Source of the DNA: a virus
Length of the DNA: 36,902 bases
Virus record (IMG/VR): IMGVR_UViG_3300035204_000692
Location: 1 to 36,902 of that record
Reading direction: 5' to 3' (one strand)
How positions within the stretch are numbered: the stretch's first letter is position 1; each line of letters begins with the position of its first letter. The notes under the pieces are model-generated. The model saw nothing but the letters and a program-made list of their open reading frames with translations, was not told where the DNA came from and searched no databases. Below are positions 6,555-36,902 of the stretch, piece by piece. A program made the translations under genes and the position numbers.

Positions 6555-6582
6555 AACAATAACCTGCCTATCCAATCAATTT

Positions 6583-13449: not shown

Positions 13450-13478
13450 ATTTTACCCTACTGATGCTGTTTGGTCAA
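13450..13478 (-). promoter_or_regulatory. Sigma70-like promoter for DNA polymerase, possibly leaderless
   Basis: TTGACC (plus 13473-13478) and TAAAAT (plus 13450-13455) are 17 bases apart on the minus strand. The -10 ends exactly six bases before the gp43 ATG at 13443, so transcription should begin at or next to the A of the AUG. The -10 covers the TAA stop of the upstream glycosyltransferase gene. Confidence 0.6.
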
Positions 13479-17734: not shown

Positions 17735-18321
17735 TTAAATACCTCCATATTTCGTAGGTCTGGCCAATCTTCTAATACCCAATCACGGGGAGATGTTTTC
17801 ATGGCTTCTGGTAATTTATTTAATCCAAGTTCTGCTGTTTCAGGAGTCATGTAGTAATGATATCCGACCGTATTAATATTTTGTGTTCTCCAAGGAATAT
17901 TTGGTTCTCGGCCATCATAAGACATCTTTTTTAATTCTTTGGCGGCGTCCTCATTATCAGTAAGAATCATTCCACCCCTACCAAGACTAAGATGCTTTTG
18001 AAACTGAAAACTCAAACACATAAAACTATTGTTGATATAACTATTCTTTTCCCACAATACAGCGGCATCAATGATGTTTGTGTTTCCTAAAACATAACAG
18101 TTTTTCCAGTTTTCATCTCTCCATTCCCAATTCAAATTTAATTTCATAGCAAGAAAAGGAACAGAGATATATGTTCGGGCAGGAATTGTGATATCATTTG
18201 CATTTGTATATCGCAAACAAAGTTCTAAACCATGAGTGCAACAATCTACAGCAACACCATAAGGCGCACCAAAGAAATCTGCTACTACATTTTCAAATTG
18301 TTTGACGGAATCAAAATTCAT
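17731..18321 (-). CDS. Truncated DegT/DnrJ/EryC1-type sugar aminotransferase
   Basis: 196 residues, about half the usual length (about 370). The PLP-binding large domain is recognisable: FGAPYGVAVDCCTHGLELCL, IIDAAVLW (Asp85, contacts the PLP ring nitrogen), LSFQFQKHLSLGRGGMILTD (Lys109, the Schiff-base lysine) and GYHYYMTPETAELGLNKLPE. The C-terminal small domain is absent, and ATGA overlaps at both ends show that the stop is part of the operon design. Full-length relatives aminate keto sugars such as the Gmd product (giving GDP-perosamine). Whether this short form is active is uncertain. Confidence 0.75.
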   Translation of the reverse strand: MNFDSVKQFENVVADFFGAPYGVAVDCCTHGLELCLRYTNANDITIPARTYISVPFLAMKLNLNWEWRDENWKNCYVLGNTNIIDAAVLWEKNSYINNSFMCLSFQFQKHLSLGRGGMILTDNEDAAKELKKMSYDGREPNIPWRTQNINTVGYHYYMTPETAELGLNKLPEAMKTSPRDWVLEDWPDLRNMEVFK

Positions 18322-18857
18322 TTGGTCGCCTCAACATTTAAACTAATTAGTGTTCCGTTGTCTTTGTCCATGTGTGGAATATATGCCTGAGAGTGGTCAT
18401 CAAAATCAGAATGTTCCGTTTCTCTCCAATCATATTTTTTAACATCTTCGAAACCACAATCGGTCAATACTTCTGAAAGTTCCCAGAAGTCATAAACTGT
18501 TTTGTGATAGATTACTTTATCACCCATTTGCATCTTGCCATAGAGCGGCCCAAGAACATCTACCAAATCAATTTCACACATAAAGTACAACTCCGCCATA
18601 CTGGTGAAATCTGGAACAGCAATACGCAATGTTCCATTTGGTTTAAGTACTCGATGCCATTGTTCAAGAAGAACAATAATTTCTTCTCTATCAAAGTACT
18701 CAATCATGTGAGATGAATAAATCAAATCGACACTATCGTCTGAGTAATCTTTCAGAAAGATATCACTGTGGTCTAGATGAGAATAATCACCACCATCAAT
18801 GTGTGTCCACCCTTCACCAAAATTTCTCCAACCACAACCGATATTTAATTTAATCAT
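18318..18857 (-). CDS. SAM-dependent methyltransferase (type 11)
   Basis: 179 residues. LNIGCGWRNFGEGWTHIDGG is the SAM-binding motif I, DDSVDLIYSSHMIEYFDREE corresponds to motifs II and post-II, and VLKPNGTLRIAVPDF to motif III. Class I methyltransferases of this compact type within sugar clusters methylate sugars or sugar intermediates. It overlaps the GT10-like gene by eight bases and the aminotransferase gene by ATGA. A substrate cannot be named; O- or N-methylation of the glycan made by this island is the natural inference. Confidence 0.85.
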   Translation of the reverse strand: MIKLNIGCGWRNFGEGWTHIDGGDYSHLDHSDIFLKDYSDDSVDLIYSSHMIEYFDREEIIVLLEQWHRVLKPNGTLRIAVPDFTSMAELYFMCEIDLVDVLGPLYGKMQMGDKVIYHKTVYDFWELSEVLTDCGFEDVKKYDWRETEHSDFDDHSQAYIPHMDKDNGTLISLNVEATK

Positions 18858-19728
18858 TGGACGCCTCTATTATAGTTTCGATTTCGGCCCAAATATTATA
18901 CTTGTCCAATATTAAATCTCTTGCTTTTGACATGGCTAAAATGTTTTCCTCTGTCGGTGGTGTTTTGATTATATCAATAACCTGTTCGATAGATTTAAAA
19001 TCATCTATATCTTTTATGTGGTGGTAACTACCTTCGGGAAGATACTCAGACACATTAGGACATCCCCAATAAATAGGCATCGTCCATGAGAGCAGAGCAT
19101 CAATTGGTTTTTCACTCACACAGTTATAGCAACTGGAATTTTCAAAAGCAATTGAATAGTGGTATGGATATAACCCTTCATACTTACAATAACTATTATA
19201 CTCTAATTTTCCTTTAAAGCAAGAGGCAATGTTCCCATAATTTTCTATACCATATGCTCCAAATATATCAATATCTTTGGTGTGTTCTACTAAGTTTATT
19301 AAGAAATTTACTCTTTTTCTATGTCCGCTTATATCAATTTTTCCACTGGTAATAGAACTGACCATGTGTTTTTTATCATCTCGATTGTATTTTAGATTCT
19401 TTAAGAAATCGTATGATTTAAGAACTCTCCAAGTAGGCACGAAATGATACTTTCTGTCTGTGTATGTTCCTTGAAAAAACAAATCGTCTGGCCAATTTAA
19501 TTTTGGGGGTTTAATTTCTGGTTCTTCTCTTTGAAGATATATCACCTTATTCAAAGGAACATTATTTGGTACTCCACCATCAAGAACTACATGATAATCT
19601 GCCTCAGATATATTGGTTGTTGCTTGTATATTATTCCACACTCCCTTTTCTTGTGGGGTGTGAATTTTATATGTGTTTAGCAAATCACTGGAACTTCCCC
19701 AATCACAATGAAACATTATTTTAGCCAT
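18850..19728 (-). CDS. GT10-like (alpha-1,3-fucosyltransferase type) glycosyltransferase
   Basis: 292 residues from MAKIMFHCDWG at 19728, preceded by AAGGAA and overlapping the cupin stop by eight bases. The C-terminal half has the GT10 signature: YHYSIAFENSSCYNCVSEKP, then LLSWTMPIYWGCPNVSEYLP, corresponding to the FENS…TEK…PVYWG block that binds GDP-fucose. FFQGTYTDRKYHFVPTW and IDIFGAYGIENYG fit the preceding Rossmann domain. With gmd and fcl nearby, GDP-L-fucose is the likely donor. The acceptor (host lipopolysaccharide, a virion glycan or another glycan) is unknown. Confidence 0.85.
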   Translation of the reverse strand: MAKIMFHCDWGSSSDLLNTYKIHTPQEKGVWNNIQATTNISEADYHVVLDGGVPNNVPLNKVIYLQREEPEIKPPKLNWPDDLFFQGTYTDRKYHFVPTWRVLKSYDFLKNLKYNRDDKKHMVSSITSGKIDISGHRKRVNFLINLVEHTKDIDIFGAYGIENYGNIASCFKGKLEYNSYCKYEGLYPYHYSIAFENSSCYNCVSEKPIDALLSWTMPIYWGCPNVSEYLPEGSYHHIKDIDDFKSIEQVIDIIKTPPTEENILAMSKARDLILDKYNIWAEIETIIEASND

Positions 19729-20128
19729 CAATAAATTCCTTGTCTGCTTCGGGCCCAAAATAAGGTCCATTTTTAAATTCGTAAACTATAGTATCATCTT
19801 TGATACAAGAATATTTGTGGCCACCGGCAAAGGTAATTGTACAATCACCCTCATTTAAAATTTCCGTTCCCATAAATTTGGCATCTTCATCATAGTAATC
19901 AACCTGAACAGAACCACGCATAATAACCCATGTTTCTTGTGTCATGTCGGTGTGCCTCTCACATTTAATGTGCTTGTGGTTGCGAAACGATTTACCGGCA
20001 TCCATTTTCATTAAAGCACCCTGAAGATATTTGTCTTCAGAGGTGAAATCAAAACGGGCACCATCTAAATCATCTAATCTATAGATGCAATGTAGCACAT
20101 CACCATTTATATTTGAATATTCTTTCAC
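19721..20128 (-). CDS. Cupin-fold protein
   Basis: 135 residues with a GTG start that overlaps the preceding stop as GTGA; AGGAAG lies upstream. NHKHIKCERHTDMTQETWVI supplies His and Glu residues typical of cupin motif 1, then RGSVQVDYYDEDAKF and LNEGDCTITFAGGHKYS match the second half of the beta-barrel. Small cupins in sugar clusters are often ketoisomerases or sugar epimerases. A metal-binding dioxygenase-type or regulatory role is possible. No catalytic assignment can be made. Confidence 0.72.
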   Translation of the reverse strand: MKEYSNINGDVLHCIYRLDDLDGARFDFTSEDKYLQGALMKMDAGKSFRNHKHIKCERHTDMTQETWVIMRGSVQVDYYDEDAKFMGTEILNEGDCTITFAGGHKYSCIKDDTIVYEFKNGPYFGPEADKEFIDG

Positions 20129-21381
20129 AATATACTTCCTACTAATTCAACATCTTTAATGTCTTTTGGTTCGTTTCTTTTTTCTTTAAGTTCACGAACG
20201 ATACCCAAAGAAGCAACCTTTACACCGTCATGCCAAAAATGGTTTTTTGGATTATAAAGAATGTCGTGTCTTGTTTTTGTATATTTTTCAATCTCATTGT
20301 TATGACTGTGGACATCTTCGTGTCCTGAAATCTCTCCCCAATCGTGAAGATAATCTAAATCTTGTCCTTCACGAAGACCGTATAAGGATAATACAGAACT
20401 TGCAGTAATACAATATTTTTCTGGATTCAAATTGTTAACCTTAATAAAGTTCTTGTAATATTCAAATTGACTTTGAAATTTTGTATAGTGTATAAAGTTT
20501 GCTTTGTTGGCATGATGAATACTATTATCATTGAAGTATGTTCTTGCGATTTGAATAGTTTCTTCATGGGTATCATTAATGTGACACGAATGTTTTCCGC
20601 AACCAAAAATACTTCTAATCTCTTCTTTTAAGGATACAGGATCCGTCGTGGAATTTGGTTTGATTAGAACGGCTATCATTGGAGCATCGTTCGTATAACA
20701 AAGTTCCGCCTTTCTAGCGAACCCTGCAAAGTTTTGTTGCCAACCTAATCCCCATTCTTCCCCCAAATAAAGTTGTCTCACAAAATTCAAGGCGCCGTTT
20801 CGTGACCACGGAATATTTTTTACATAAACAATAGAACTGTGTTTATTTAATATTTCAAATGTTTCATCAAGTTTTTCGTGTTGATGAACTGCTGATGGGA
20901 AAAGGGTTACAATCAGAGAATCCTTATCCAACACTGCATATTCTGAGGCCATTGCATCCATATAAAATGAATCCAATCCTAGTTCTTTAAAATAATCGCT
21001 CGAACAATTAAGTTGTCCCTCGGAAGCAGATTGTGCAATGTGATATTCCACATCTCTGTTGTATAGTATTCCTGCCGCAACTCTATGGGCCCCATTTAGT
21101 AACAACATGTTCGATGTTACAGGAACAGTACCGTAGTAACTGTTGAATCCATTTTTTGATATAGAATCTAAAATGTTATCAAATGTAGTCTTGAAACTTT
21201 CATATGTTTTTTTATTGGGATTATCTAATTCATCAAAACCATTCCACACTCGCAAATGTTCTTTATATACATCTTCACCAAATGATGTGTCATAACCATT
21301 CTCTCGATATTTGGCGTAAATATATTTTGCGGGTATATCAAAACGATTGTTGTTTAATAATTCAATAGATTTTATTTTCAT
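20125..21381 (-). CDS. Two-part protein: ParB-like N-terminus and possible nucleotidyltransferase-like C-terminus
   Basis: 418 residues. Near residue 93, NMLLLNGAHRVAAGILYNRD resembles the GxHR core of ParB/sulfiredoxin-fold domains, which bind or hydrolyse nucleotides. The C-terminal 110 residues (ASSVLSLYGLREGQDLDYLH; HNPK-like YNPKNHFWHDGVKVASLGIV; KEKRNEPKDIKDVELV) resemble a nucleotidyltransferase-like module found with glycan genes in bacteria and viruses; this is from memory and tentative. The central 200 residues are unassigned. It lies between a GT2 enzyme and the cupin, with 4-base overlaps on both sides. A role in activating or attaching a sugar is inferred. Confidence 0.6.
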   Translation of the reverse strand: MKIKSIELLNNNRFDIPAKYIYAKYRENGYDTSFGEDVYKEHLRVWNGFDELDNPNKKTYESFKTTFDNILDSISKNGFNSYYGTVPVTSNMLLLNGAHRVAAGILYNRDVEYHIAQSASEGQLNCSSDYFKELGLDSFYMDAMASEYAVLDKDSLIVTLFPSAVHQHEKLDETFEILNKHSSIVYVKNIPWSRNGALNFVRQLYLGEEWGLGWQQNFAGFARKAELCYTNDAPMIAVLIKPNSTTDPVSLKEEIRSIFGCGKHSCHINDTHEETIQIARTYFNDNSIHHANKANFIHYTKFQSQFEYYKNFIKVNNLNPEKYCITASSVLSLYGLREGQDLDYLHDWGEISGHEDVHSHNNEIEKYTKTRHDILYNPKNHFWHDGVKVASLGIVRELKEKRNEPKDIKDVELVGSIL

Positions 21382-22109
21382 AGTGTTTCCAATCGTTGAT
21401 ATGGTGGTTGTTTTCGCAAAGCGGCCTCAATTCGCAATTGTTCATGGGGTACTTTTACCCAATCAGAATATTCGTTTGCTTCGTTGTAAACATACATTCC
21501 ATCGGGTATATATTTGAATCTTTCGCCTGACATTTCTAACATTGGCCACATAAAGGTCAAATCACCGGCCGCTTTATACCACTCTCCATCTGTATCAATA
21601 AAATCTTTGGGGTCGATTTTTAAAATCAATTCTCTTCTAAATGTTCTAAGGTGTGTGGCACGCCATTCGTCTTGCCGAAATTTATTTTGTTTTACTATAT
21701 CATCAGGATATCTTCCTTGACCGACCACCCGACCATGTGATGTGTGATACTTGGACCCATAAGTCATCCAAGTATTTTCATCGTAATATTCATCCAGTTT
21801 TTCTAATACCCAATGATTTGGTAGCCAATCATCAAAATCTAAGGTCACAATAATTGAACCTTCTTTGGCCATTTGTGAACCTTCATACACATTTTGTGTT
21901 TGGTATTTTCTAGTTTCGTTTCGAACTACAGTTAGATTATCATATTCTTTTTCTTGTTCTAACAGATATTCATAAGTACCATCTGTGGTTTGGGCATCAA
22001 TAGCAATAACATCAAAATTATCGTGGTATTGGTTGGCCGCAGACAATACTGAATTTTCAATCCACTGTCTGGAATTATATCCCATCATTAAAATTGTGTA
22101 ATGATTCAT
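21378..22109 (-). CDS. GT2 family glycosyltransferase
   Basis: 243 residues from MNHYTILMMGYNSRQWIENS at 22109, chosen because GGGAG lies upstream and it overlaps the epimerase stop as ATGA. NFDVIAIDAQTTDGTYEYL and GSIIVTLDFDDWLPNHWVLE (DxD motif near residue 95) define the GT-A fold of family 2, and RTFRRELILKID follows. No membrane segment is present, so it is a soluble transferase using a nucleotide sugar. It is probably one of the chain-building enzymes of the island. Confidence 0.88.
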   Translation of the reverse strand: MNHYTILMMGYNSRQWIENSVLSAANQYHDNFDVIAIDAQTTDGTYEYLLEQEKEYDNLTVVRNETRKYQTQNVYEGSQMAKEGSIIVTLDFDDWLPNHWVLEKLDEYYDENTWMTYGSKYHTSHGRVVGQGRYPDDIVKQNKFRQDEWRATHLRTFRRELILKIDPKDFIDTDGEWYKAAGDLTFMWPMLEMSGERFKYIPDGMYVYNEANEYSDWVKVPHEQLRIEAALRKQPPYQRLETL

Positions 22110-23011
22110 GCCTTTACTCCCATTGAATCTTCCAATTTGATTGTTGATTCCCAACCCAAAAGGTCTTTTGCTTTTGTACAATCGGCAAGAGTTTCCCTTG
22201 CTTCACCATCTCTAGGTGGAAGATGAACATATTCAGCATCCTTTCCACCAATCATTTTTATTAAATCGTGAATGTTATGATTAGTTTCTGAACCGATATT
22301 AAATGTTTCACCGATTACTTGGTCACCTGCAAGCATTGCTTTAATGTTTGCATCTACGACATCCAAAACATTGACATAATCTCGCCGTTGCATACCATCA
22401 CCAACAATAGTCATGGGTTCACCGGCGGCAACTTGTCTTTGGAAAATGCCCATGACAGGTGCATATTGTCCTCTTCTTGGTTGTCTATTTCCATACACAT
22501 TAAAATATCTAAATATAACAGTTTCTAATCCAAACAAATCTGTGAACATTTTACACAGGTCTTCTCCAGAAACTTTAGTTACTGAATATGGATTTAAACA
22601 ATCAGTGGGCATCGTTTCTTTGTTTGGTATTTCATTTTCTAAACCATATGCCGCCGAGGTTGAAGAATATATCACACGGCGAACATCATGTTTTCTTGCC
22701 GCTTGCAATACATTACAAGTTCCTAAAACATTTGTTTTGGTTGCCAATATTGGGTCTTCGATTGTGTTCATAATCCGTGCTTCTGCCGCTAGATGAAAAA
22801 CACAATCAACATCTTTGAACAAAGGTTCAATCCTATTAAAATCGGCAACATCATAATCCCAATATTCAGCAGAATCATTATAGAAAAATGATTCGTGTGC
22901 ATCGGAAGATTCGTTGTCAATGACAATAACATGATGACCTTGTTCTACCAAAGCATCTACAATATTCGAACCAATGAACCCTGCGCCGCCTGTTACTATT
23001 ATTCGTTTCAT
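22106..23011 (-). CDS. UDP-sugar 4-epimerase-like extended SDR
   Basis: 301 residues. The NAD motif is VTGGAGFIGSNIVDAL; VFHLAAEARI, YSSTSAAYG (catalytic Ser), NPYSVTKVSGEDLC (Tyr-xxx-Lys) and FRYFNVYGNRQPRRGQYAPV are typical of UDP-GlcNAc/UDP-glucose 4-epimerases of the WbpP/GalE group. IVGDGMQRRDYVNVLDVVDA and FNIGSETNHNIHDL complete the family pattern. It is the second epimerase of the island and differs clearly from the one at 14845. It could act on the product of the UDP-sugar dehydrogenase encoded just upstream, for example UDP-glucuronate to UDP-galacturonate. Confidence 0.88.
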   Translation of the reverse strand: MKRIIVTGGAGFIGSNIVDALVEQGHHVIVIDNESSDAHESFFYNDSAEYWDYDVADFNRIEPLFKDVDCVFHLAAEARIMNTIEDPILATKTNVLGTCNVLQAARKHDVRRVIYSSTSAAYGLENEIPNKETMPTDCLNPYSVTKVSGEDLCKMFTDLFGLETVIFRYFNVYGNRQPRRGQYAPVMGIFQRQVAAGEPMTIVGDGMQRRDYVNVLDVVDANIKAMLAGDQVIGETFNIGSETNHNIHDLIKMIGGKDAEYVHLPPRDGEARETLADCTKAKDLLGWESTIKLEDSMGVKA

Positions 23012-23757
23012 GGTGTGGCCAATCCTAATACTTGATGTATTTCCTTATGATGGTCAGAGTGTGGTCGTAATGAATGGCAGTCAATATAAAATCCCGCTTG
23101 TATAAGTTGAGGATGCCATTTCCAATCGGCTCTATCGATTCTTCTATTAATCGTTTGTGTTTTCTGTACTACCCTACCACCCTCTTCTTTGAATTCCATA
23201 ATTTTTTTAGATGAAAATACCTCATCTACATTCCATTTGGTTAAAGCGGGCCCGTTCCAACCTTCAGGAGTATGTACTTGATTTTCATCAACTTCATCAA
23301 TAACTTTATTTACATACGAATGAAAACTATCTCCATCGATACCCAAAACTTTATCAAACATTTTACCCAAGGCCAAATGATAACAAATTGGAAAGTAGTC
23401 GCCTTCCGAATTTAAATTTGTCCAATCTGGTTGTGTTGCTGTCCAATTCATTACCACCTCATTCCAATAACTTCGAGACATTGGAAACATATCAATATCA
23501 CTAGTAATCCAAAGCGTATCGGGTTCTTGTGTAGGATACCATAGTCTGGCCAACTGTGCTTGTGTATGGACTGGCAAATTTTTGTCTATTGGGATATGAT
23601 GAACTTCACCATATTTTTTACTGATATCAATGTTTGGGTCACCAACATGAATCAATACAGGTGTAATATCAATAACCTTCTTCCATGTTTTTGAAACATC
23701 ATTCCAAAAATCTAGATAATAAGGATTATCATCACATGACATAATAACTTTAATCAT
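23008..23757 (-). CDS. Putative GT-A type glycosyltransferase
   Basis: 249 residues from MIKVIMSCDDNPYYLDFWND at 23757; it overlaps the dehydrogenase stop by eight bases and the epimerase start by ATGA. DTLWITSDIDMFPMSRSYWN near residue 90 looks like the DxD donor-sugar site of nucleotide-sugar transferases. YFPICYHLALGKMFDKVLG and the C-terminal GFYIDCHSLRPHSDHH are also distinctive. No close family comes to mind; marine phage genomes carry similar proteins in sugar clusters. Assignment rests on the DxD region and context. Confidence 0.6.
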   Translation of the reverse strand: MIKVIMSCDDNPYYLDFWNDVSKTWKKVIDITPVLIHVGDPNIDISKKYGEVHHIPIDKNLPVHTQAQLARLWYPTQEPDTLWITSDIDMFPMSRSYWNEVVMNWTATQPDWTNLNSEGDYFPICYHLALGKMFDKVLGIDGDSFHSYVNKVIDEVDENQVHTPEGWNGPALTKWNVDEVFSSKKIMEFKEEGGRVVQKTQTINRRIDRADWKWHPQLIQAGFYIDCHSLRPHSDHHKEIHQVLGLATP

Positions 23758-24592
23758 TTGACACCGCCGAGGATTTGTCTGCCCAATCCCAATCTTTCCT
23801 AATAATTTTATTTTGTTCCCATACCACATTTAGAAGTCGTGGTTCGATACCATTTTCTATCATTGTTTCCATTAATGCATTAACATCTTTTGGAAAGCAT
23901 GTGCCACCAAAACCATAATCACCATCTGGGCCCGGCACATCCGTGTGAGATTTGCCAATTCGTGGGTCTGCAAGAACACCAATCAACAGAGTATCCCAAT
24001 CAATGTTTGGGTTTTCATCGACAAGCAAACGAATTTGATTGAAGAACATTACCTTAGTTGCCAAGAAACAGTTTGAAGTATATTTAACCAATTCCGATTC
24101 GTCAGATGTCATTTCATACACCGGCATGTCTAGGAAATTGTTTCTAAACAAATCGGCAACCATGTTGGTATAACATTGTTGTCCTTCAGGGCCTCCAATA
24201 ACCGTTCGGTCAGCATTTACAAAATCTTGATTAGCATTGGCCGCCGTTAAAAACTCAGGACAATGAACAAGATTTGGTAGTGCATATTGTTCAGACAATA
24301 TTTTGGTTGTTCCCACAGGAACTGTTGATTTCAAAATAAGAACTTGGTCTTTGTTAAAAGTAACACTTGAAATAAAATTTGTAATCGCAGAAATGTTTGC
24401 TCGTCCGCCTTCTGCATTATACATTGGGGTAGGTAAACATATAAACACATATTTACACTCCATTACTTCTTCTAATGTGTTGGGGGATTTTTCGGGAGAT
24501 ATATCATATACCAAAGGGTCGAGGTCCTTAAAACCATATGCAACCGCACCACCCACAAATCCATTACCAATAATTCCAATTTGATTATTCAT
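23750..24592 (-). CDS. Short UDP-glucose/GDP-mannose dehydrogenase-like protein
   Basis: 280 residues, versus 390-450 for typical enzymes. The NAD domain begins IGIIGNGFVGGAVAYGF. CKYVFICLPTPM, ILKSTVPVGTT, HCPEFLTAANANQDF (with the catalytic Glu) and GFGGTCFPKDVNAL (catalytic Cys near residue 234) are all kept, as is KYTSNCFLATKVMFFNQI. The C-terminal nucleotide-binding domain is absent. Full-length homologues oxidise UDP-glucose or GDP-mannose to the uronate; the short form may bind its substrate differently or act in a dimer. It overlaps the Nmad1 gene by one base (TAATG) with an AAGGAA site. Confidence 0.82.
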   Translation of the reverse strand: MNNQIGIIGNGFVGGAVAYGFKDLDPLVYDISPEKSPNTLEEVMECKYVFICLPTPMYNAEGGRANISAITNFISSVTFNKDQVLILKSTVPVGTTKILSEQYALPNLVHCPEFLTAANANQDFVNADRTVIGGPEGQQCYTNMVADLFRNNFLDMPVYEMTSDESELVKYTSNCFLATKVMFFNQIRLLVDENPNIDWDTLLIGVLADPRIGKSHTDVPGPDGDYGFGGTCFPKDVNALMETMIENGIEPRLLNVVWEQNKIIRKDWDWADKSSAVSND

Positions 24593-24909
24593 TATGTTTC
24601 CTTAGAATTCACATACCCACTGAACAAAATCATGTAATTAATAATATCTAGTACGGCATCTTCAAACCCCTCATTGTTAACCTTTAATTCACCGGCGTCT
24701 ACAAAAGTAGATAATCGAGAAACTTTATCAATAACACGCACAAGGAATCCACACTCGGTCGAACACACACCCATTGCCTCGCATCGTTCAAAGTTAGCAA
24801 ATGGTTTCTCACCACCTTGTCCTGCATAATCGTGGTTCTTTTGTTTCATTATATTCAATGCGGTCTTGCACAAAACGGCATGATGTTTTAGTAATTGTTC
24901 TCTGTTCAT
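24592..24909 (-). CDS. Nmad1 / DUF1599 protein (nucleotide modification-associated)
   Basis: 105 residues. KNHDYAGQGGEKPFANFERC, CGFLVRVIDKVSRLSTFVD and EDAVLDIINYMILFSG match the DUF1599 pattern, whose helical fold and acidic residues recall MazG-type nucleotide pyrophosphohydrolases. The family has been described as associated with nucleotide modification. It follows the dUTPase gene with GGGAG before its ATG. The two nucleotide genes interrupt the sugar island, suggesting pool sanitising or a modified-base pathway. Confidence 0.75.
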   Translation of the reverse strand: MNREQLLKHHAVLCKTALNIMKQKNHDYAGQGGEKPFANFERCEAMGVCSTECGFLVRVIDKVSRLSTFVDAGELKVNNEGFEDAVLDIINYMILFSGYVNSKET

Positions 24910-24911
24910 TA

Positions 24912-25469
24912 TTATACTCCCGTACTTCCAAATCCACCAATACGCTCAGTAGTCTGTCCCGGCTGTTCTGTAACTTCTTCAAGAACATTAGGAACACTTT
25001 CAATTAATTCACCTTGTGCAAGTCTATCGCCATGATATATACGAATTTCGTCTGCACTTCCATTGTATAGCATTACAAATGTTTCGTGGTAGTAATCGGA
25101 ATCTATAATACCAACACCATTAGGAATAATTAAACCCTTCTTTAAAGAAACACTTGAGCGAGGATGAATACGAACAGAATGACCTACTGGAATTTTAAAA
25201 ATTAATCCAGTAGGAATACATGCTCGTTCGCCGGGAGCGAGGTCAATACCGACACCAAATGTTCGGGTAGAACCTTTAGGCATTGCCCAACATTTACACA
25301 ATCGTTCCTCTAATTTATTATCCATTGTGTATACTTTTACTTTAACTTCATCATTCTGATAAAGTGTTTCTTTAAAATATGCTTTAATGTCAAAACAGGC
25401 CGAACCCGCAGTGGCATATACAGGGTCAAACCCATCTTCGTGGAGTTTGTAATAACCTAATTTTTTCAT
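24912..25469 (-). CDS. dut: Deoxyuridine triphosphatase (dUTPase)
   Basis: 185 residues with all five trimeric dUTPase motifs: AGSACFDIKAY (1), HPRSSVSLKKGL (2), PNGVGIIDSDYYHE (3), IYHGDRLAQGELI (4) and the C-terminal RIGGFGSTG (5). An insertion of about 30 residues lies between motifs 1 and 2 (around ERLCKCWAMPKG), which makes it longer than common phage forms (about 150). It hydrolyses dUTP to dUMP, keeping uracil out of DNA and supplying ThyX with substrate. It overlaps the GT10-like gene by ATGA. Confidence 0.95.
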   Translation of the reverse strand: MKKLGYYKLHEDGFDPVYATAGSACFDIKAYFKETLYQNDEVKVKVYTMDNKLEERLCKCWAMPKGSTRTFGVGIDLAPGERACIPTGLIFKIPVGHSVRIHPRSSVSLKKGLIIPNGVGIIDSDYYHETFVMLYNGSADEIRIYHGDRLAQGELIESVPNVLEEVTEQPGQTTERIGGFGSTGV

Positions 25470-26323
25470 AATTTACTAAAATAATTATCCCACAGATAAT
25501 CATCGCTTCCTTTCAAATTTTTAACACGGTTTAAGTTATCTTCGATTGCCGGCATCATTTTGTGGTATACATCGGCATTAAGATTGAATATTGATGGTTC
25601 AAAATCTTCTGTTAACATTATCATCCCATCGGTATTAAAATATTTACCAATAGATGGACACCCCCAATAAATAGGAACAGTACCAAGTGCAAGACAATCC
25701 GTTAATTTTTCTGTGAAGTAATGGTCGTATGTTGAATTTTCCATTACCACACTAAACATATAATCTTTTAAACCCTCTGTTTTGTCTGGATGAACCATAG
25801 AATTTTCTGTTCCAAATCTAGGTGTGCCACACGCACCACCCATAACATCAACTCGCCCAGATTCCAACATGCGTTTTGCTTGGTGGTGACGATATGCATG
25901 GCCAGGACACATTTGTTTATGTGATGCAATCATAGAACACAATTTAGTTTTTTTATGGATACCATAATCAGATTCTTTAACCCAAGGCAAAACACTGTTA
26001 GGGAAAACAAATTTAAATCTAGGGTCTAGTTGTAGAAGTTCTTCATCACCTGTGAATATTGCGGCATAGTGAGGCAATATCTCTTTATAATTGGCCCTCA
26101 ACCATCGGTAAACATCTGGTCGTATGTCTCTAGATTCAAATACCCAACCGAATTTTTTATCGTGTTTGGGCGCCTTCATCCCTTCTGAAATTCCCCTATC
26201 AATCCATACTTCAATATCTCCTTCAGACATACTCCAAGAAAACTCTTTCGGTACTCTTGTCGAACACGAAGAATAATCGGGATGGAATAAAAATTCACCC
26301 ATCAATCTCACATTTGGTTTCAT
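25466..26323 (-). CDS. Second GT10-like glycosyltransferase
   Basis: 285 residues. The GT10 signature is clear: YMFSVVMENSTYDHYFTEKL, then LALGTVPIYWGCPSIGKYF. KTKLCSMIASHKQMCPGHAYR and VDVMGGACGTPRFG fit the preceding part of the donor domain. It is only distantly similar to the GT10-like protein at 18850, so a recent duplication is unlikely. It overlaps dut and the next gene by ATGA. The donor is probably GDP-fucose or a related GDP-sugar. Confidence 0.86.
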   Translation of the reverse strand: MKPNVRLMGEFLFHPDYSSCSTRVPKEFSWSMSEGDIEVWIDRGISEGMKAPKHDKKFGWVFESRDIRPDVYRWLRANYKEILPHYAAIFTGDEELLQLDPRFKFVFPNSVLPWVKESDYGIHKKTKLCSMIASHKQMCPGHAYRHHQAKRMLESGRVDVMGGACGTPRFGTENSMVHPDKTEGLKDYMFSVVMENSTYDHYFTEKLTDCLALGTVPIYWGCPSIGKYFNTDGMIMLTEDFEPSIFNLNADVYHKMMPAIEDNLNRVKNLKGSDDYLWDNYFSKL

Positions 26324-27006: not shown

Positions 27007-27411
27007 TTATCCTTTACCGATATGATATTTGGGAATCAATTCCCACTCATCCTTTTCTTTGTATGATAAAATTTTAATTTGACCCATAGAAACTCTGGGT
27101 TCAACCACCACATCGGGGTCAACAATTTCTAATAATCCCCATTCATTTAACAGGGAAACAATAGTGTTTCGCCGGCCGATATCACCAACACTCAAATCAG
27201 TTGATAATCCATCAAGTGAAAATAACTCTTTAAAGTGTACGATATAATACTTTCCTCTTTTGTGGAGGATGTGACATGATTGGTATAATTTATTGGACTT
27301 TTTTGAAGACACCCCTATACGAGTTAGGGTTTCTTTAATTTTCAAAAAATTATCGGGATTTTCAAAGATGACTTCAACTAAATCTTCAATCCCAATTTGG
27401 ACATTTTCCAT
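27007..27411 (-). CDS. regA: RegA translational repressor
   Basis: 134 residues (T4 RegA is 122). FLKIKETLTRIGVSSKKSNK, LYQSCHILHKRGKYYIVHFK and FSLDGLSTDL correspond to the conserved RNA-binding core. RegA binds the start regions of early mRNAs and blocks their translation, including those of clamp-loader genes in T4. The start has an ideal AAGGAG site. As in T4 it lies directly downstream of gp62, but the next gene is the glycan island instead of gp43. Confidence 0.92.
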   Translation of the reverse strand: MENVQIGIEDLVEVIFENPDNFLKIKETLTRIGVSSKKSNKLYQSCHILHKRGKYYIVHFKELFSLDGLSTDLSVGDIGRRNTIVSLLNEWGLLEIVDPDVVVEPRVSMGQIKILSYKEKDEWELIPKYHIGKG

Positions 27412-27428: not shown

Positions 27429-27812
27429 TTAATCATTATATTCACCGCCCAGTTTTTTCTTCAATTCACTCACCTGCTCATGTGTCAAAATATCTAACAC
27501 TTCCAAAGCCTTTTTATTTGAGTACCCATAATATTGTTTGATTGTATCTAAATCCTGGACAGGTTTTTTCTTTAACCATTTACTATATCTCTTTCGAGGT
27601 CTAATACTATGTAGTAAATAATCAAATTGCATCTTTTTATCCAAGTGGCCACGCATATTAATTTCATTGGCCTGAAGGATTGTGTCTGGGAAAAATGATA
27701 ATGTTTTGTTTACAAAAAATGGCACATATCTCTTCTCAACCTGTTCGTCTTCGGTGTCGAGAAGAGACTTCTTTGTGCTGTTGATTGCATTTATGTAATC
27801 GAATAGTTTCAT
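27429..27812 (-). CDS. 62: Clamp loader small subunit, T4 gp62-like
   Basis: 127 residues from MKLFDYINAINSTKKSLLDT at 27812, chosen because it overlaps the membrane transporter stop as ATGA; the longer open frame upstream is antisense to no gene but lies inside the transporter. RYVPFFVNKTLSFFPDTI and the RKRYSKWLKK segment match gp62 of marine T4-like phages, shorter than the 187 residues in T4. It joins four gp44 subunits to load gp45. No Shine-Dalgarno sequence is visible, so translation probably depends on ribosomes finishing the transporter gene. Confidence 0.85.
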   Translation of the reverse strand: MKLFDYINAINSTKKSLLDTEDEQVEKRYVPFFVNKTLSFFPDTILQANEINMRGHLDKKMQFDYLLHSIRPRKRYSKWLKKKPVQDLDTIKQYYGYSNKKALEVLDILTHEQVSELKKKLGGEYND

Positions 27813-28858
27813 ACGAGAGAGTATACCCCGGCCACCAGTAGTAGTGCAACCCAAATTCCCAATGCTTTTGCATATTCTCCCCACGGTGTATTGAAGTACA
27901 TACGACCGATGTGCATACACTTGTGGGTAGGACTTACAAGGTAACCAGAGTACTCAAGTGCGAAGAACCACACGAAGTATTCCAGACCATACACGGATGA
28001 TAGAATCACCACAAGTCCAGAGAACTTACTCGATGAACCAAGACAGAACGCAGAGGTAAATGCCAGAACTGAAATCGCAACGAATCCAACTGTGGTGTTA
28101 ATGTCAAGCACTTGAGAATTCTCAAGGAAGACTTCGATTTCACCGTAGTAACTCTTCGCATAGTTCGATGCGACAATGACAACCGAGAGAGTTGCCACCA
28201 AAGGCCACTTGATGTATGATAGAATATCACCAAGTGCGAAGGTCTGTGACAAACACAGATAGTAAATTGCTAAAGCACTAAACGCCCACTGTGGTTCTAG
28301 ACCGACCCAAGGTGTGATGGAAGCAATACCCAACAGAAGTGGCAATGCACCATAAAACAAACGGGGTTTGTGAATATCAAATCCTGCATCAAGACTAAGT
28401 TGAATGTCCTCTTCTTTGATTCGGAACATGATGTAGTATGTGATATACGCAATCGTTACCGCTAGAAGAGGCCAAAGCATTCCGACAACCGCACCATAGG
28501 TCAGACCCAATGCCGCAATGGGCATGATGATTGTCTTTTCCAGTGGTGACCACAGATAATAGTGGTGAGATGCTAGGTAGTCGATGATACCAAACTTATG
28601 CCGGCATGTACTACACTTCTCCTTCGATGGTGCGAGCGAATCAAGAATACCCGCAGAGGTGGTTACTCTGCCCGGAATGGGCAACACACCACCGAATAGT
28701 GAAACCAACGCAAGCACAAGTCGCTTCGACCTTACCTTGCGAATGAGAATACCAAACACATCATGCAGATAGAAATGGTCACGAACGATTCCACCAATAA
28801 TCATGATAGCAACCAAGTAGAAAATATATTCTTGATTGTTAAATATTAAGTGCATCAT
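27809..28858 (-). CDS. Multi-pass membrane transporter, DUF401 / ion-transporter-superfamily-like
   Basis: 349 residues, mostly hydrophobic, with roughly eight to ten membrane segments. LPIPGRVTTSAG at residues 59-70 and SGYLVSPTHKCMHIG near 310 resemble the two paired signature loops of DUF401 proteins, a predicted transporter family related to the ion-transporter superfamily. A cytosolic CSTCRHK could bind metal. It starts at ATGATG overlapping the gp44 stop and ends overlapping the gp62 start, ATGA at both junctions. GC is high (34 of 60 at 28621-28680, versus 15 of 60 at 17461-17520), pointing to transfer from another genome. The substrate is unknown; a small organic anion or ion is plausible. 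Confidence 0.72.
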   Translation of the reverse strand: MMHLIFNNQEYIFYLVAIMIIGGIVRDHFYLHDVFGILIRKVRSKRLVLALVSLFGGVLPIPGRVTTSAGILDSLAPSKEKCSTCRHKFGIIDYLASHHYYLWSPLEKTIIMPIAALGLTYGAVVGMLWPLLAVTIAYITYYIMFRIKEEDIQLSLDAGFDIHKPRLFYGALPLLLGIASITPWVGLEPQWAFSALAIYYLCLSQTFALGDILSYIKWPLVATLSVVIVASNYAKSYYGEIEVFLENSQVLDINTTVGFVAISVLAFTSAFCLGSSSKFSGLVVILSSVYGLEYFVWFFALEYSGYLVSPTHKCMHIGRMYFNTPWGEYAKALGIWVALLLVAGVYSLV

Positions 28859-29796
28859 TTAAAAGTACACTCCATCATTAGTTCTGTAAGACATGCTGTT
28901 AGGTTAATTTCTTGGTCGGCAACACGGGATGCTTTGTCTTGATAATCAGCAAGAATTAAAATGGCTGCCGGAATTGAAGACGATTCAAACGATTCATATA
29001 ACCCATCATAAATTCTACGAAATATTCTAGTTTGGTCGTTGTCTAAATTATCAACCACCCATTTTCTAACCAATGTGAATTCTTTTTTCTTCATAGAAGA
29101 TACAAGGGTATCTAATTGAATATCACCAAGATTGGATAATATTCCATTGTCAATTATACCTGCAACCGAATATCGTTGAAGTTCATTTATAATCCTACGA
29201 AAATCAGGAAAATGTCGTGCTACTAATTGTGCAACAACTGGTTCTTCATATGTAATATTTTCGTTTACAAGAATGTATTTAATTCTTTCTAACAGTTGTA
29301 CCGCAAGTATTGGTTTTTCTGTATTGGGAATTCTAAACTCAACATTCGTGCATCTAGAATGCAGTGGTTCAATGATTCGATTCTTGAAATTGCAAGTCAA
29401 AATAAACCGACAGTTCTTTGAAAACTCTTCAATAAATCCACGCAATGCGGGTTGTGTTGATTGTGCATTTGAGTAATCAAACTCATCAAGAATGACAACC
29501 TTTTTAGAACCAGAAATCGAAACTGTGCTGGCAAAGTTCCGAATCTTTGTTCGTAAAGTATCAATGTTACCATCTTCTGAACAGTTAATTATGATATAAT
29601 CTGTATTCAATTCGGAGCATAATGCTCTAGCAACTGTGGTCTTTCCACAACCTGCTCCGCCCGATAACAAAAGATTTTGGGCCTCATCGGCCTGTATCAT
29701 ATCATGAAATGTTTTTTTAATAGATGATGGTAAAATACAATTGTCTATAGTTCGTGGGCGATATTTTTCAACCCACAAGTATTCATTATTTGTCAT
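28855..29796 (-). CDS. 44: Clamp loader large subunit, T4 gp44-like (AAA+ ATPase)
   Basis: 313 residues (T4 gp44 is 319). WVEKYRPRTIDNCILP at the N-terminus is the RFC box, LLLSGGAGCGKTTVARAL near residue 42 is Walker A, KKVVILDEFDYSN near 95 is Walker B, and EPLHSRCTNVEFRIP near 140 contains the SRC arginine finger. It loads gp45 onto primer junctions. It starts four bases after the gp45 stop without a clear Shine-Dalgarno site and overlaps the transporter by ATGA. Confidence 0.95.
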   Translation of the reverse strand: MTNNEYLWVEKYRPRTIDNCILPSSIKKTFHDMIQADEAQNLLLSGGAGCGKTTVARALCSELNTDYIIINCSEDGNIDTLRTKIRNFASTVSISGSKKVVILDEFDYSNAQSTQPALRGFIEEFSKNCRFILTCNFKNRIIEPLHSRCTNVEFRIPNTEKPILAVQLLERIKYILVNENITYEEPVVAQLVARHFPDFRRIINELQRYSVAGIIDNGILSNLGDIQLDTLVSSMKKKEFTLVRKWVVDNLDNDQTRIFRRIYDGLYESFESSSIPAAILILADYQDKASRVADQEINLTACLTELMMECTFK

Positions 29797-29800: not shown

Positions 29801-30496
29801 TCAACCGTTGTACTTAGAGTCTGCTTCCAGTGCAATCCAGTATCGAAGATTTTTTGTTTTATGTTCGAACTGACTCACAACCTTTTCAGTAATATTAACG
29901 GTGTATTCACCCGACATTAGTTTTAGATTTTCCACTTTGAAAAACATTTCAAACTCGGCAGATGAATCGTATGTTACATTTTGAAGTTCGATTGAATATG
30001 AGTTGCTTGATGGGTCTGCTTTATCAATAACAACTGCTTCGATGCCCGTAGCAGAATTACGAATACACAAATCTGGCAACTGAAGTACAGAGGCCGCCTT
30101 GGTCATTTCACTAAACACACTTGGTTTCCAATCAAAACTAATAACTGGTTCCGGCATTTTAATTTGTTTTTTAACTGTGGTTAGAAGAGATGGGTCAGAA
30201 AAATAATACTTAACTGATGCCCCATTTTCTTCAATTATGACATACTTATCAGTAAAATCAAATGTAGGGTTTTTGAAGAGAGAAATAACTCCCAAGAATT
30301 TGTTTAAATCCCACAATCCAAATTCATTGTCAAATGTTTCTGATACAGTTGCTTCTGCCATAACATTCTTTACTGGTGAAATGGTTGTAAGTTTATTTCC
30401 CGCAGAAACTAGAAGGTTAGAATTTATAGAAGCAAAATTCTTAAGTACTTCAAGGGTATCACGGGAAAGGGTTAATTGTGTTGCTGTTGTTGTCAT
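29801..30496 (-). CDS. 45: Sliding clamp, T4 gp45-like
   Basis: 231 residues (T4 gp45 is 228). LSRDTLEVLKNFASINSNLL at the N-terminus and FGLWDLNKFLGVISLFKNPT near residue 78 are conserved in gp45 of T4-like phages. The trimeric ring tethers gp43 and, in T4, also activates late transcription. A strong AAGGAG site precedes the ATG, and a sigma70-like promoter lies at 30528-30556 with a start near 30521. It heads the gp45-gp44-transporter-gp62-regA unit. Confidence 0.94.
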   Translation of the reverse strand: MTTTATQLTLSRDTLEVLKNFASINSNLLVSAGNKLTTISPVKNVMAEATVSETFDNEFGLWDLNKFLGVISLFKNPTFDFTDKYVIIEENGASVKYYFSDPSLLTTVKKQIKMPEPVISFDWKPSVFSEMTKAASVLQLPDLCIRNSATGIEAVVIDKADPSSNSYSIELQNVTYDSSAEFEMFFKVENLKLMSGEYTVNITEKVVSQFEHKTKNLRYWIALEADSKYNG

Positions 30497-32262: not shown

Positions 32263-33093
32263 TCAAAACTCCGTGATACTTCCTATTAATTTATTCAACT
32301 TATTTGACACGAAGTAATTAAACAATTTGCTTCTGTCGGTTGATGATGGTTTATTAAATTCCACCAATATTTTTTCTTCTGCCCAATCGGGCACTTGATT
32401 TAAATCCACCATGTTATGATTTCTTTTCCAATTATCTGTGGTGTTCCAATTATCGATATCTTCAATAATCATATTAATCTTTTTAACACCACATCCCTTT
32501 TGCCGTTTTCCTTCTGTCACAAACACATCATTATCTGAGAGTATGTTTGGAACACCATCCGATGCATCTCCTTTGATAATATGTTCTAAAAGAAATCGTT
32601 CGGGGTCATCACAAACCAAAAACTTTTTATGGGTTGGACTGTATTGCTTGATGTTGGGGTATCGTTGCAGTTGTTGGAAATCTTTATCCGAAGAAACAAT
32701 AACAATTTTTTCTTGTTGATGATAATGTTTACAAATAACACCTATGATATCATCTGCTTCACATCTTGGAATACCAATACTTTTATATGGGAAATTTTCT
32801 ACAATTTCATCCCGAATGATTGCAAGTGAATTATAAATTGCATCCCAATCAAACTTAGATTTGGTTTGAGATTTTTTTCTGTTCTTTTTATATTCGGGGA
32901 AAATATCTCTACGCCATTGATTACCAGAATCTTGACATATCACCAATTCACCATATGACTTGAACTTTGTTCGATACATTCGATAAGTATTCAGAACCAA
33001 ATGGCGAAGAAGTCCTTCGTCAATTTCATTACCATGTTTAATTGTTTGAAATAAACTTGCGAGGATGAGTTGATTATTGTCCAATAAAATCAT
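32263..33093 (-). CDS. rnh: RNase H / 5'-3' flap exonuclease, T4 Rnh-like
   Basis: 276 residues (T4 RNase H is 305). The FEN-type acidic residues are visible: LLDNNQLILA at the N-terminus, ICQDSGNQWRRDIFPEYKKN near residue 52, RCEADDIIGVICKHY near 110 and VIVSSDKDFQQLQRYP near 130, followed by KGDASDGVPN and the helix-hairpin-type GCGVKKI. It removes RNA primers from lagging-strand fragments. The start overlaps the upstream gene as ATGA. Confidence 0.9.
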   Translation of the reverse strand: MILLDNNQLILASLFQTIKHGNEIDEGLLRHLVLNTYRMYRTKFKSYGELVICQDSGNQWRRDIFPEYKKNRKKSQTKSKFDWDAIYNSLAIIRDEIVENFPYKSIGIPRCEADDIIGVICKHYHQQEKIVIVSSDKDFQQLQRYPNIKQYSPTHKKFLVCDDPERFLLEHIIKGDASDGVPNILSDNDVFVTEGKRQKGCGVKKINMIIEDIDNWNTTDNWKRNHNMVDLNQVPDWAEEKILVEFNKPSSTDRSKLFNYFVSNKLNKLIGSITEF

Positions 33094-34226
33094 GCAAATG
33101 CCTTTAATATAATTGTGTTGCCGTTGATACGACCAGTTGGTTTAGTAGATTTTGTTTTTAATGTTCCCCACGCCTTATTAAATGCCCGTATTCCCTTCAC
33201 TGCTTCTTGTAACATTGCATGTGGTTTTCTAAGGCGCCGAGTTTCTGATTGTTCTGAAGAAAAATTCTGCAAGGTTGAACCTTTGACCGAAAGGCCCGAT
33301 AAATCCTTTGCATGGTAAATTGTCAATTGACGATACTTCGTATTAAACACGATAAGTTTAGAAGCACCAATAATATCCTCTGGTTTAATACTTACCAATT
33401 TATATTCTTCGTTAGTATTTTCATATTTCATTTTCGACACAAGTTGTTGTGGTGTCTTTACTTTTCGTTTTCTGGGCTTGCGGGGTTTAACCGCAATTCG
33501 TCCATGCTCATAACAACCCTTTGTAATTTCTTCTATGTTCTTCAACCACTTCTTTTGCTGTGGTCGAGTCATAAAATCATATGCTTCTTTGAGTTGGTCA
33601 CATTGTCCCTTCACCAATTCTTGAATCTCATTACAATAAGTCTTTTCTAAATACTCTGCAATCATTTTTGACTGCATGGATTTTACTTCCCTGCCTGATA
33701 ACCACCCACCGACATCAAAAACAATTTCTTTTTTATTAATGATTCCATCCAAAATATCATCCAGTTTTTGTTCAATGTCCCCAATATATTCCGAAACTTG
33801 GTCTGCAATTCTTTCTTGAATAGTCTTGGTAGACTTCGGGGCGGCCTGTTGTGCCCTGATTTTATCTGCTTTTTTTCTGGATGTAGTATTTTTAATTTCC
33901 AGAAGATATTTGTCTATTGTTTCTTTAAACGAAGTGGGAACAGAAATTCCCTTTGGAATTCTGGATGCTACCCGACAATAAGGAGACAGCACATCATATT
34001 GAAATGTAGTTCCACCTGAGTATGATTGTACTTCCTTCTTGCCGTGGACACTGGTTACATAATCCAATACCCACTTCTTTTCTTTCGCCTTGGTCATGTG
34101 TCCACAACGATACCAATTAACCGCCTTATGTAATGACCAAGCGAGGTCGTTGCTTTCAGATAAGGCATCCAAGGAAGGTTCGTTTCCATATGCCTTGGAC
34201 ATGTACTTATTGTGTTTTTGTTTCAT
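33090..34226 (-). CDS. Conserved hypothetical protein of T4-like marine phages
   Basis: 378 residues if started at the ATG at 34226; MSKAYGNEP at 34202 is an alternative start. No Shine-Dalgarno site precedes either. A helical, charged middle (KADKIRAQQAAPKSTKTIQE) is followed by a basic VKPRKPRKRKVKTPQQLVSK linker near 250-270, then a domain with IVFNTKYRQLTIYHAKD. From memory, similar proteins occur beside replication genes in marine T4-like phages, with no known function. Basic patches suggest nucleic-acid binding. It has its own strong promoter. Confidence 0.75.
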   Translation of the reverse strand: MKQKHNKYMSKAYGNEPSLDALSESNDLAWSLHKAVNWYRCGHMTKAKEKKWVLDYVTSVHGKKEVQSYSGGTTFQYDVLSPYCRVASRIPKGISVPTSFKETIDKYLLEIKNTTSRKKADKIRAQQAAPKSTKTIQERIADQVSEYIGDIEQKLDDILDGIINKKEIVFDVGGWLSGREVKSMQSKMIAEYLEKTYCNEIQELVKGQCDQLKEAYDFMTRPQQKKWLKNIEEITKGCYEHGRIAVKPRKPRKRKVKTPQQLVSKMKYENTNEEYKLVSIKPEDIIGASKLIVFNTKYRQLTIYHAKDLSGLSVKGSTLQNFSSEQSETRRLRKPHAMLQEAVKGIRAFNKAWGTLKTKSTKPTGRINGNTIILKAFA

Positions 34227-34232: not shown

Positions 34233-34260
34233 ATTATACCATAATCACATATAGTGTCAA
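34233..34260 (-). promoter_or_regulatory. Consensus sigma70 promoter upstream of the 33090 gene
   Basis: Both boxes are perfect: TTGACA (plus 34255-34260) and TATAAT (plus 34233-34238), spacing 16. The -35 overlaps the glnA stop codon. The -10 ends six bases before the ATG at 34226, so the mRNA would be leaderless for that start or have a leader of about 24 bases for the start at 34202. Confidence 0.75.
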
Positions 34261-35342
34261 GCAGTAACAGCCTTTGCTTTAGATTTGGATTTTCGGGTCT
34301 TTTCAATGGCCACTAAACTATTTGTTAATGAAAATAATACACTGTATGGGTCGCAATTAGCGGCCGGCCGCCGGTCTTCCATGTAAAAATTGTCCCCCTT
34401 AATAACACTAGAAGGAATTCGGACAGATGCCCCTCTATCACCAATACCACTTTTGAATTTATTAATGTGACAAGTTTCATGGTCGCCCGTTAGTCTTCTT
34501 TCATTACCAACACCACACACCGAAATGTGTTCGTTGTGGTCTTTTTCTAATTGGTCTACAATCAGTTTAACTTCGTCTTCACTATATCCATTATCTCGCA
34601 TACATTTTGTGCTGAAATTGATATGACATCCCGAACCATTCCAATCTCCTGCAATTGGTTTGGGGTCGTATGAAATAATCACATTAAAATATTCGCTCAA
34701 CCGTTCCATAATATATCGAGCAATCCAGAGTTCATCGGCCAAATCTGTTGCACTCAAAACCCCCAATTGATATTCCCACTGAGACAACATCACTTCGGCA
34801 TTTGTTCCTTCGATATGTAAATTGGCCTTGTGACACATTCCAGTATGCTTTTCAACAAAATTTCTCCCCTGAACAAAATTTCCAGAACCACAATAATATC
34901 TTCCTTGGGGTTGTGGGAAAACTACTTGGTTTTCCTTCATCGGCCATCCCAATGGACGAATGCTTCGATTATCGAGGATAACATATTCTTGTTCTGCACT
35001 AAAAAGAATATCATTCTTTTTTAATTTTTGAAGTTTTGCTCTGGTATTGCTTGGGTGTGGTTTTCCATTAGGAAGCATAACCTCACACAATACAATGAAC
35101 GAGTCCCACCCATCATTTTCGTCATTCATAGGATTGTTTACCATGTAAACAGGTTTAAGCACAAGGTCGCTATCATCGCCTGGTGCTTGCTGTGTGCTTG
35201 ACCCATCAAATCCCCACTCAGGAATTTGCTTTGCGGTGGTTGGAAGTTTATCAACTTCCACAATTCTAATTTTGCTTCGTAAGTTTTGGACAGGGGTGTA
35301 TCCGTCTAACCAAACATAATCAACTCTAATTTTCTGTGACAT
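34257..35342 (-). CDS. glnII: Type II (eukaryote-like) glutamine synthetase
   Basis: 361 residues, a normal length for GSII. It joins ammonia and glutamate using ATP. The family blocks are all present: PEWGFDGSSTQQAPGDDSDL (41-60), SAEQEYVILD with the metal-binding Glu (115-124), PQPQGRYYCGSG (144-154), NAEVMLSQWEYQLG (181-194), DPKPIAGDWNGSGCHINFST (226-245), GNERRLTGDHET (279-290), RGASVRIP (303-310) and EDRRPAANCDPYS (322-334). Catalytic residues appear intact, so activity is expected. It starts nine bases after the methyltransferase stop with AAGGA. A phage copy would draw host nitrogen into glutamine for nucleotide and amino-sugar synthesis (inference). Confidence 0.95.
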   Translation of the reverse strand: MSQKIRVDYVWLDGYTPVQNLRSKIRIVEVDKLPTTAKQIPEWGFDGSSTQQAPGDDSDLVLKPVYMVNNPMNDENDGWDSFIVLCEVMLPNGKPHPSNTRAKLQKLKKNDILFSAEQEYVILDNRSIRPLGWPMKENQVVFPQPQGRYYCGSGNFVQGRNFVEKHTGMCHKANLHIEGTNAEVMLSQWEYQLGVLSATDLADELWIARYIMERLSEYFNVIISYDPKPIAGDWNGSGCHINFSTKCMRDNGYSEDEVKLIVDQLEKDHNEHISVCGVGNERRLTGDHETCHINKFKSGIGDRGASVRIPSSVIKGDNFYMEDRRPAANCDPYSVLFSLTNSLVAIEKTRKSKSKAKAVTA

Positions 35343-35351: not shown

Positions 35352-36902
35352 TTACTCACTTGGTTTATAAAAAACATAAACGGGTTCAAATTTATGGAAC
35401 TTACCGTTCACTTTACAATAGTTCTTACACTTGGGGACACCATCATCACCCACTCGATTTTGCCCAGGCATCCCAACCATTGCCATCTTCAGTGTATATC
35501 TATACACCATTCCATACTCTTCTAGAATTTTTTTGGAATCTTCTTCTAGCGGGAGATAGTTTTTTCCAACTTTCAAATCGGCAATGTTCCATAAAAGATA
35601 TCTATCGGGCCTTAAATATTCGGCGCATGTCTTCAGTGTTGGTCGTAAGAACCCGTCACGCCACGAATCATACGAAGACCCATATCTTTTGTACGACTGA
35701 GCGGCGTCTTCGCTATACGCCTCTCTGTTGAAATAAGGCGGCGAAGTAAAGATGAGGTCGAGTTTGCCTTTGTACTTTTGGAAGTCGGGGTTGTATGAGA
35801 TGTCTTCGGCGCAATCTGAAAATATTTCATATGTATTGGTTTCAGAAAAGAAAGGGTTTCCCCGATAAGTTTTGGTATTAAAAAAATCTGCCACATCAGA
35901 ATACCGACTAGCACTGCGCCCGTCATAATGGTTGTCAGGATTAGGGTCAGTGCCAATATAATTGATAGTGCGGTCATCCCGTACAGACATAGCACCAAGT
36001 ATCCTACCGCCCCAACCAGCCGATGGGTCATAGATGTTAATAACTTCTTGGTTCTTGATGGTTTCGGTGAATCTTTCATACAAGTATTTAGCAGTCATAG
36101 GAGGATAATTATGTGCTACTTGTATGTATCCTACTCGAAACGCCACAAAGGCATGTGGGAACAATTTTTTGTGCTTTAGTTTAAACATTCTAATTAAATA
36201 AATGTTGTCATTAGACAAATTATCCAAATCAATATTTGAAACATTTCTCTTGGTGAGTCTACCAGAGTCCCATAATTCCCGAACCTCATCAGCAGTAAAT
36301 GCCAGTGTGGTCTTTTGGTCTACTTGAATATATCCAGTAGAAGTTTCTCCTGTATTCTTTTGCTCAGATAACCACCAATCATAACCATTAAAAATATTTT
36401 TGTGTGTTTCAAATGCCTTTAACCATTCATGTGGTGTATTAACTTTGACAATCGCAGTTTTGGTATCATTCTTCCTTGCACATGCACTCATATAATAAAA
36501 ACTATCACGCTTGAAATGCCGTTTTCCAGATTTAATCATTCGTGGTAGGTGGCGGTCATCGGCAAACAAATCATAAATGGAGTATCCATTATCATTTTCA
36601 TTGTAATTGATTCGAGTCTTGTACATATGAGGAAACCACTGGTCAACCTCAACCCCCAAATGCCTATCATTAATAATTACATCATTTTCGATATCAGACA
36701 ATTCATCGGTATGTGTAAATTTAGAAACATTATATTCCGACAACTTATTAAAATTTTTGACAATATCGGGGTCATTTTTTCCACCTCTAGGTGGACAATT
36801 GTGTTCGGCCCAAATATCAACAATTTTCTTTCTGAGGTCAATAATCCATTGTTCGAATTCTTCATCGGTCATATCGAGAAGGTCTTCAAAATAACAATTA
36901 AT
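35352..36902 (-). CDS. DNA methyltransferase (adenine or N4-cytosine), probably 5'-partial
   Basis: The frame is open to the right edge; an internal ATG at 36872 would give 506 residues but has no clear ribosome binding site, so the start may lie beyond the window. IYDPSAGWGGRILGAMS (motif I, about 280-296 from that ATG) binds SAM, and LIFTSPPYFNREAYS (motif IV, SPPY at 377-380) is the catalytic loop of amino-methyltransferases. ADLKVGKNYLPL follows. The N-terminal 270 residues are unassigned and may read the target site. No restriction partner is seen, so it probably protects phage DNA or modifies the host genome. Confidence 0.82.
   Translation of the reverse strand: MNCYFEDLLDMTDEEFEQWIIDLRKKIVDIWAEHNCPPRGGKNDPDIVKNFNKLSEYNVSKFTHTDELSDIENDVIINDRHLGVEVDQWFPHMYKTRINYNENDNGYSIYDLFADDRHLPRMIKSGKRHFKRDSFYYMSACARKNDTKTAIVKVNTPHEWLKAFETHKNIFNGYDWWLSEQKNTGETSTGYIQVDQKTTLAFTADEVRELWDSGRLTKRNVSNIDLDNLSNDNIYLIRMFKLKHKKLFPHAFVAFRVGYIQVAHNYPPMTAKYLYERFTETIKNQEVINIYDPSAGWGGRILGAMSVRDDRTINYIGTDPNPDNHYDGRSASRYSDVADFFNTKTYRGNPFFSETNTYEIFSDCAEDISYNPDFQKYKGKLDLIFTSPPYFNREAYSEDAAQSYKRYGSSYDSWRDGFLRPTLKTCAEYLRPDRYLLWNIADLKVGKNYLPLEEDSKKILEEYGMVYRYTLKMAMVGMPGQNRVGDDGVPKCKNYCKVNGKFHKFEPVYVFYKPSE

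Follow-up and report, generated by a model that had tools for sequence, protein, structure and literature searches.

Type II glutamine synthetase (GSII) has been known from marine viruses since 2007, when Yooseph et al. (PMC1821046) described a large viral group of the enzyme in the Global Ocean Sampling metagenomes. Members of that group came from metagenomic scaffolds, were assigned to viruses by their neighbouring genes and fell near eukaryotic glutamine synthetases and mimivirus in the authors' tree. Glutamine synthetase has also been reported in nine moraphages (PMC12619734), and glnA in jumbo phages (PMC13037316). The copies that we find in huge phages (LR756501-LR756503, LR745206) are GSII and 43-45% identical to the protein described here; like the moraphage enzymes they are phage-borne, but they branch outside the T4-like phage clade to which our protein belongs. 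No cultured carrier of GSII was found in 50,697 annotated phage records, where the only four carriers were all huge-phage metagenomic entries, yet a single scan recovered at least 592 viral contigs with relatives of the gene. With these contigs and the three published reports in hand, the view taken in a preliminary description of this locus, that such genes are rare in phages, fails outside cultured phages.

The gene analysed here resembles the group of Yooseph et al. in being a type II enzyme assigned to viruses, as theirs was in marine metagenomes, and differs from it in lying within a T4-like replication cluster and in a clade apart from eukaryotic glutamine synthetases. It occupies positions 34257-35342 on the minus strand (-) of a 36,902-base IMG/VR fragment, the whole of which we call the window, and is a complete reading frame of 361 amino acids with an ATG start, confirmed as a real gene and not a chance frame. 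Both the beta-grasp N domain and the catalytic C domain are recognised by Pfam above cut-off (Gln-synt_N, PF03951, 2.8e-11; Gln-synt_C, PF00120, 2.9e-15). The NCBIfam GlnII model matches at 2.4e-106 and 355.7 bits, compared with 55 bits for GlnA; this score lies below the 500-bit cut-off for equivalog naming, as do those of the yeast (426) and Medicago (418) GSII enzymes. In a search of the PDB the best match was Streptomyces GSII (4bax, 1.5e-86), with all GSII entries at about 1e-80 or better and GSI entries at 1e-9 or worse. Judged by such comparisons of sequence, the protein sits nearer to GSII than to either of the types GSI and GSIII.

Alignment to solved GSII structures shows that 12 of 12 metal, ammonia and phosphate ligand positions are conserved (D46, E117, E119, E183, E190, H240, R283, E289, R303, R308, E322 and R324), which bears out the initial observation that all GSII catalytic blocks are intact. 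We take the roles of these positions from the maize enzyme and transfer them by way of the alignments. An AlphaFold2 model of the protein (pLDDT 93.7, pTM 0.92) has Streptomyces GSII 4bax as its closest PDB structure (TM 0.89/0.94). The two-domain fold, catalytic residues and length are shared with bacterial and eukaryotic GSII (GlnII of Streptomyces 4bax, and the plant, yeast and animal enzymes), whereas identity to them is at most about 50%. Compared with its nearest relative, the 90% identical L002, the gene shows dN 0.054 and dS 0.45, and with dN/dS of about 0.12 it is under purifying selection.

The window carries a T4-like replication set of gp43, UvsX, gp41, gp61, gp45, gp44, gp62, RegA and RNase H, together with ThyX, ribonucleotide reductase (RNR), dUTPase and a sugar-nucleotide and glycosyltransferase block. 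All features given here are on the minus strand (-). Directly upstream of GSII, at one edge of its slot, is a DNA methyltransferase with a TSPPY motif that serves as a marker of the lineage (35352-36872); the other edge is a phrog_11903 protein of unassigned function (33090-34226), followed by RNase H/5'-3' exonuclease (phrog_107; 32263-33093), the sliding clamp gp45 (29801-30496), the clamp loader subunits gp44 (28855-29796) and gp62, the small subunit (27429-27920), and the translational regulator RegA (27007-27411). Farther along are the family B DNA polymerase gp43 (10888-13443), whose nearest isolates are cyanophages at about 50% identity, a gp61-like primase (7120-8184) and ThyX (5817-6575). 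Viral core genes lie on only one side of GSII, as no more than 1.5 kb of contig remains upstream of it. Its position within the T4-like replication cluster makes the gene phage-borne, and the core genes on the same contig substantiate the original assignment to a phage. GSII starts 9 bp past the end of the upstream methyltransferase, is served by an AAGGA ribosome-binding motif and has a composition (GC 0.40, GC3 0.33) resembling that of adjacent phage genes; with the dN/dS value above, these features indicate that the gene is resident in the phage and kept by purifying selection. None of the genes recognised in the window belongs to purine or CTP biosynthesis, which counts against the metabolic role proposed below.

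Other parts of the window have features of their own. The methyltransferase, which has a long N-terminal extension, is conserved across this uncultured T4-like lineage, and among the matches listed from known phages no more than about half of the query is covered, at roughly 30% identity or less. Between gp43 and RegA (13453-26323) are glycosyltransferases together with a GDP-mannose dehydratase, a predicted fucose synthase, a UDP-glucose dehydrogenase and a GT10 protein.

In three trees, of 97, 45 and 55 sequences, the window GSII falls in a clade made up of phage sequences only (SH-aLRT 97, 96 and 99), which stands apart from bacterial and eukaryotic GSII. When long-branched relatives with replaced catalytic residues (pseudo-GSII, below) were added in a tree of 80 rows, a split with support of 95 separated the bacterial, eukaryotic and remaining viral rows from the T4-like and pseudo-GSII rows. 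The T4-like set needs two changes in that tree and the small group containing the window lies near the boundary, so its exact placement there is unsure. A eukaryotic source was rejected, as a grouping of the window with eukaryotic GSII gave p-AU 0.021, and bacteria commonly have this type too, with GSII in about 41 of 198 Bacteroidota genomes; the label "eukaryote-like" is not supported. A limited sampling of bacteria gave no close source either: nothing exceeded about 50% identity when the best 80 of at least 591 genome-contig matches were compared, and nothing was closer than 48% in 198 Bacteroidota genomes and 121 genomes of one Planctomycetota order. The preliminary description had named a place inside a bacterial-host clade, with host DNA alongside, as grounds for rejecting it. 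What we find is an all-phage clade and a phage context, and because the gene is neither of a bacterial clade nor in host DNA, that description withstands this challenge.

The position of GSII was followed through the lineage using the methyltransferase, not GSII itself, as anchor, with 80 loci sampled, some of them overlapping contigs already found. An intact GSII lies between the methyltransferase and phrog_11903/RNase H at 17 of the 80 loci and immediately upstream of the methyltransferase at five (one of which, L266, is cut by the contig end). A GSII-like protein whose catalytic residues are replaced fills the slot at eight loci, and a far more degraded protein does so at one (L263); GSII is elsewhere at one locus, and at four the slot is not covered. 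GSII is dispensable in the lineage, since no copy is found nearby at the remaining 44 of the 80 methyltransferase loci. A second arrangement, with GSII between primase and ThyX-RNR, is seen in sister phages such as L005, L006, L012 and L041; in L006 and L041 the gene is flanked by gp43-UvsX-gp41-gp61 on one side and ThyX-RNR on the other. GSII thus has a fixed slot, running from methyltransferase to RNase H-gp45 or from primase to ThyX-RNR, that is often empty, and no contig searched whole held more than one copy. The primase-ThyX position in the window is taken by a DUF4406/deoxyribosyltransferase-like gene (6743-7135), which in L235 and L275 lies beside gp45; in the L275 contig it is GSII that lies between primase and ThyX, as though the genes had traded positions.

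Pseudo-GSII was found at loci L216, L217, L219-L221, L226, L236, L276 and L293-L305. A dedicated scan returned 13 contigs that share 57-100% identity with the query, along with five loci that are more distant (30-31%); some of these contigs are among those described above. These proteins, 344-414 amino acids as called (one cut by a contig end), carry the replacements E183 to G/A, E190 to S/T, H240 to N/I/C, E289 to G/Q and R308 to C, while most of the fold signature is kept. Lacking key metal and ammonia ligands, they are putatively inactive. They nevertheless show pairwise dN/dS of about 0.05-0.2 where dS is unsaturated, and a structure model retains the GSII fold (pLDDT 86.5). Every catalytic residue is kept in the full-length relatives aligned, except in the pseudo-GSII clade and L263. 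Our literature search found no relevant paper on phage pseudo-glutamine synthetases, and pseudo-GSII is apparently a conserved phage protein not previously described. The L263 protein, between the methyltransferase and phrog_11903, has 319 amino acids, is 21% identical to the window GSII and has lost most catalytic residues; it may represent this decay at a more advanced stage.

A lead to the host comes from one gene. A phosphate-selective porin (Porin_O_P) is encoded at 2384-3535 (-) in the window and also in the sister contigs L005, L012 and L033. Relatives occur in 117 of 121 genomes of the Planctomycetota order mentioned above (best 40% over full length) and in 30 of 149 planctomycetes at large, which points to a member of that order as candidate host. 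Hosts outside the planctomycetes were considered by the same porin similarity and found weak (3 of 249 Pseudomonadota and 6 of 145 Verrucomicrobiota genomes; the Bacteroidota survey comprised a few genomes only). In the candidate order GSII is present in 12 of 121 genomes, and in most genomes Gln-synt_C matches a frame of 730-820 codons, the size of GSIII. GSII as a class is not known to carry the tyrosine at which GSI is adenylylated. However, because GlnE was found in only 8 of 61 genomes of these bacteria, our only host lead, escape from host adenylylation, as first suggested for this gene, is not a demonstrated advantage and is left unsupported.

Since a degraded version is under purifying selection in some sister phages, glutamine synthesis may not be the sole selected role of the gene. 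Mainly because pseudo-GSII sits at the same slot, we keep in mind, as a tentative and rather unlikely reading, that the slot could serve a role without catalysis: a GSII-fold protein would manipulate host nitrogen control or have a new activity, the window copy being the enzymatic form and its stripped sisters selected pseudoenzymes. It is more doubtful still that GSII acts chiefly as a binding partner, joining or competing with host glutamine synthetase or its regulators to alter host nitrogen control, with catalysis secondary. The eight sampled loci with E183, E190, H240, E289 and R308 replaced, the selection on these proteins and their predicted fold would fit such a partner, but pure binding would not require the full catalytic set that the window copy and its other full-length relatives keep, and few genomes of the candidate host order contain a GSII.

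The neighbouring methyltransferase and the large glycosyltransferase and sugar-nucleotide block bring to mind a repurposed ligase that couples glutamate to some other amine, as might serve to modify DNA bases or surface glycans, and the glutamine synthetase fold does include other ligases such as gamma-glutamylputrescine synthetase. We regard this as improbable: the NCBIfam match to that enzyme is weak (E 0.03), the ammonia-site-aligned D46 and E289 are intact, there was no recognisable nucleotide hydroxymethylase, and in sister phages GSII adjoins ThyX-RNR and not the methyltransferase. Patchy presence among related phages could also be expected of a recent host gene or a mis-assembled contig, with no selected function. 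That idea is hardly credible, being already contradicted by purifying selection and phage-like composition, by the same syntenic position across many independent assemblies and by the identity ceiling of about 50% to bacterial GSII in the samples searched.

We therefore favor a model, which we consider likely, in which a T4-like phage lineage, aquatic and uncultured, uses the window GSII as an auxiliary metabolic gene to make glutamine during infection, the gene having been acquired long ago and later spread among phages. The phage would produce an ATP-dependent glutamate-ammonia ligase that forms glutamine from host glutamate and ammonium. The glutamine would chiefly supply nitrogen for making purines, CTP and amino sugars. 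This supply would coincide with phage DNA replication using the phage's own ThyX, ribonucleotide reductase and dUTPase; the analysis shows the intact gene with its fold, selection, phage context and phage-only clade, and from these we infer the activity, its timing, the use of the glutamine and the host. The earlier suggestion that nucleotide synthesis would receive unregulated glutamine is plausible. The gene would have come from a bacterial-type GSII source and then moved between these phages, which repeatedly gained, lost and relocated it at two positions of the replication cluster.

To the viral type II enzymes already known from the ocean, our analysis adds a lineage assignment, a slot in which GSII is intact, stripped or absent, and an apparent pseudoenzyme. 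The viral type II glutamine synthetase of ocean metagenomes is now tied to a defined T4-like lineage and a fixed slot, which makes its role testable. With the stripped sister proteins, that slot also offers a natural contrast of glutamine synthesis with a function that needs no catalysis.
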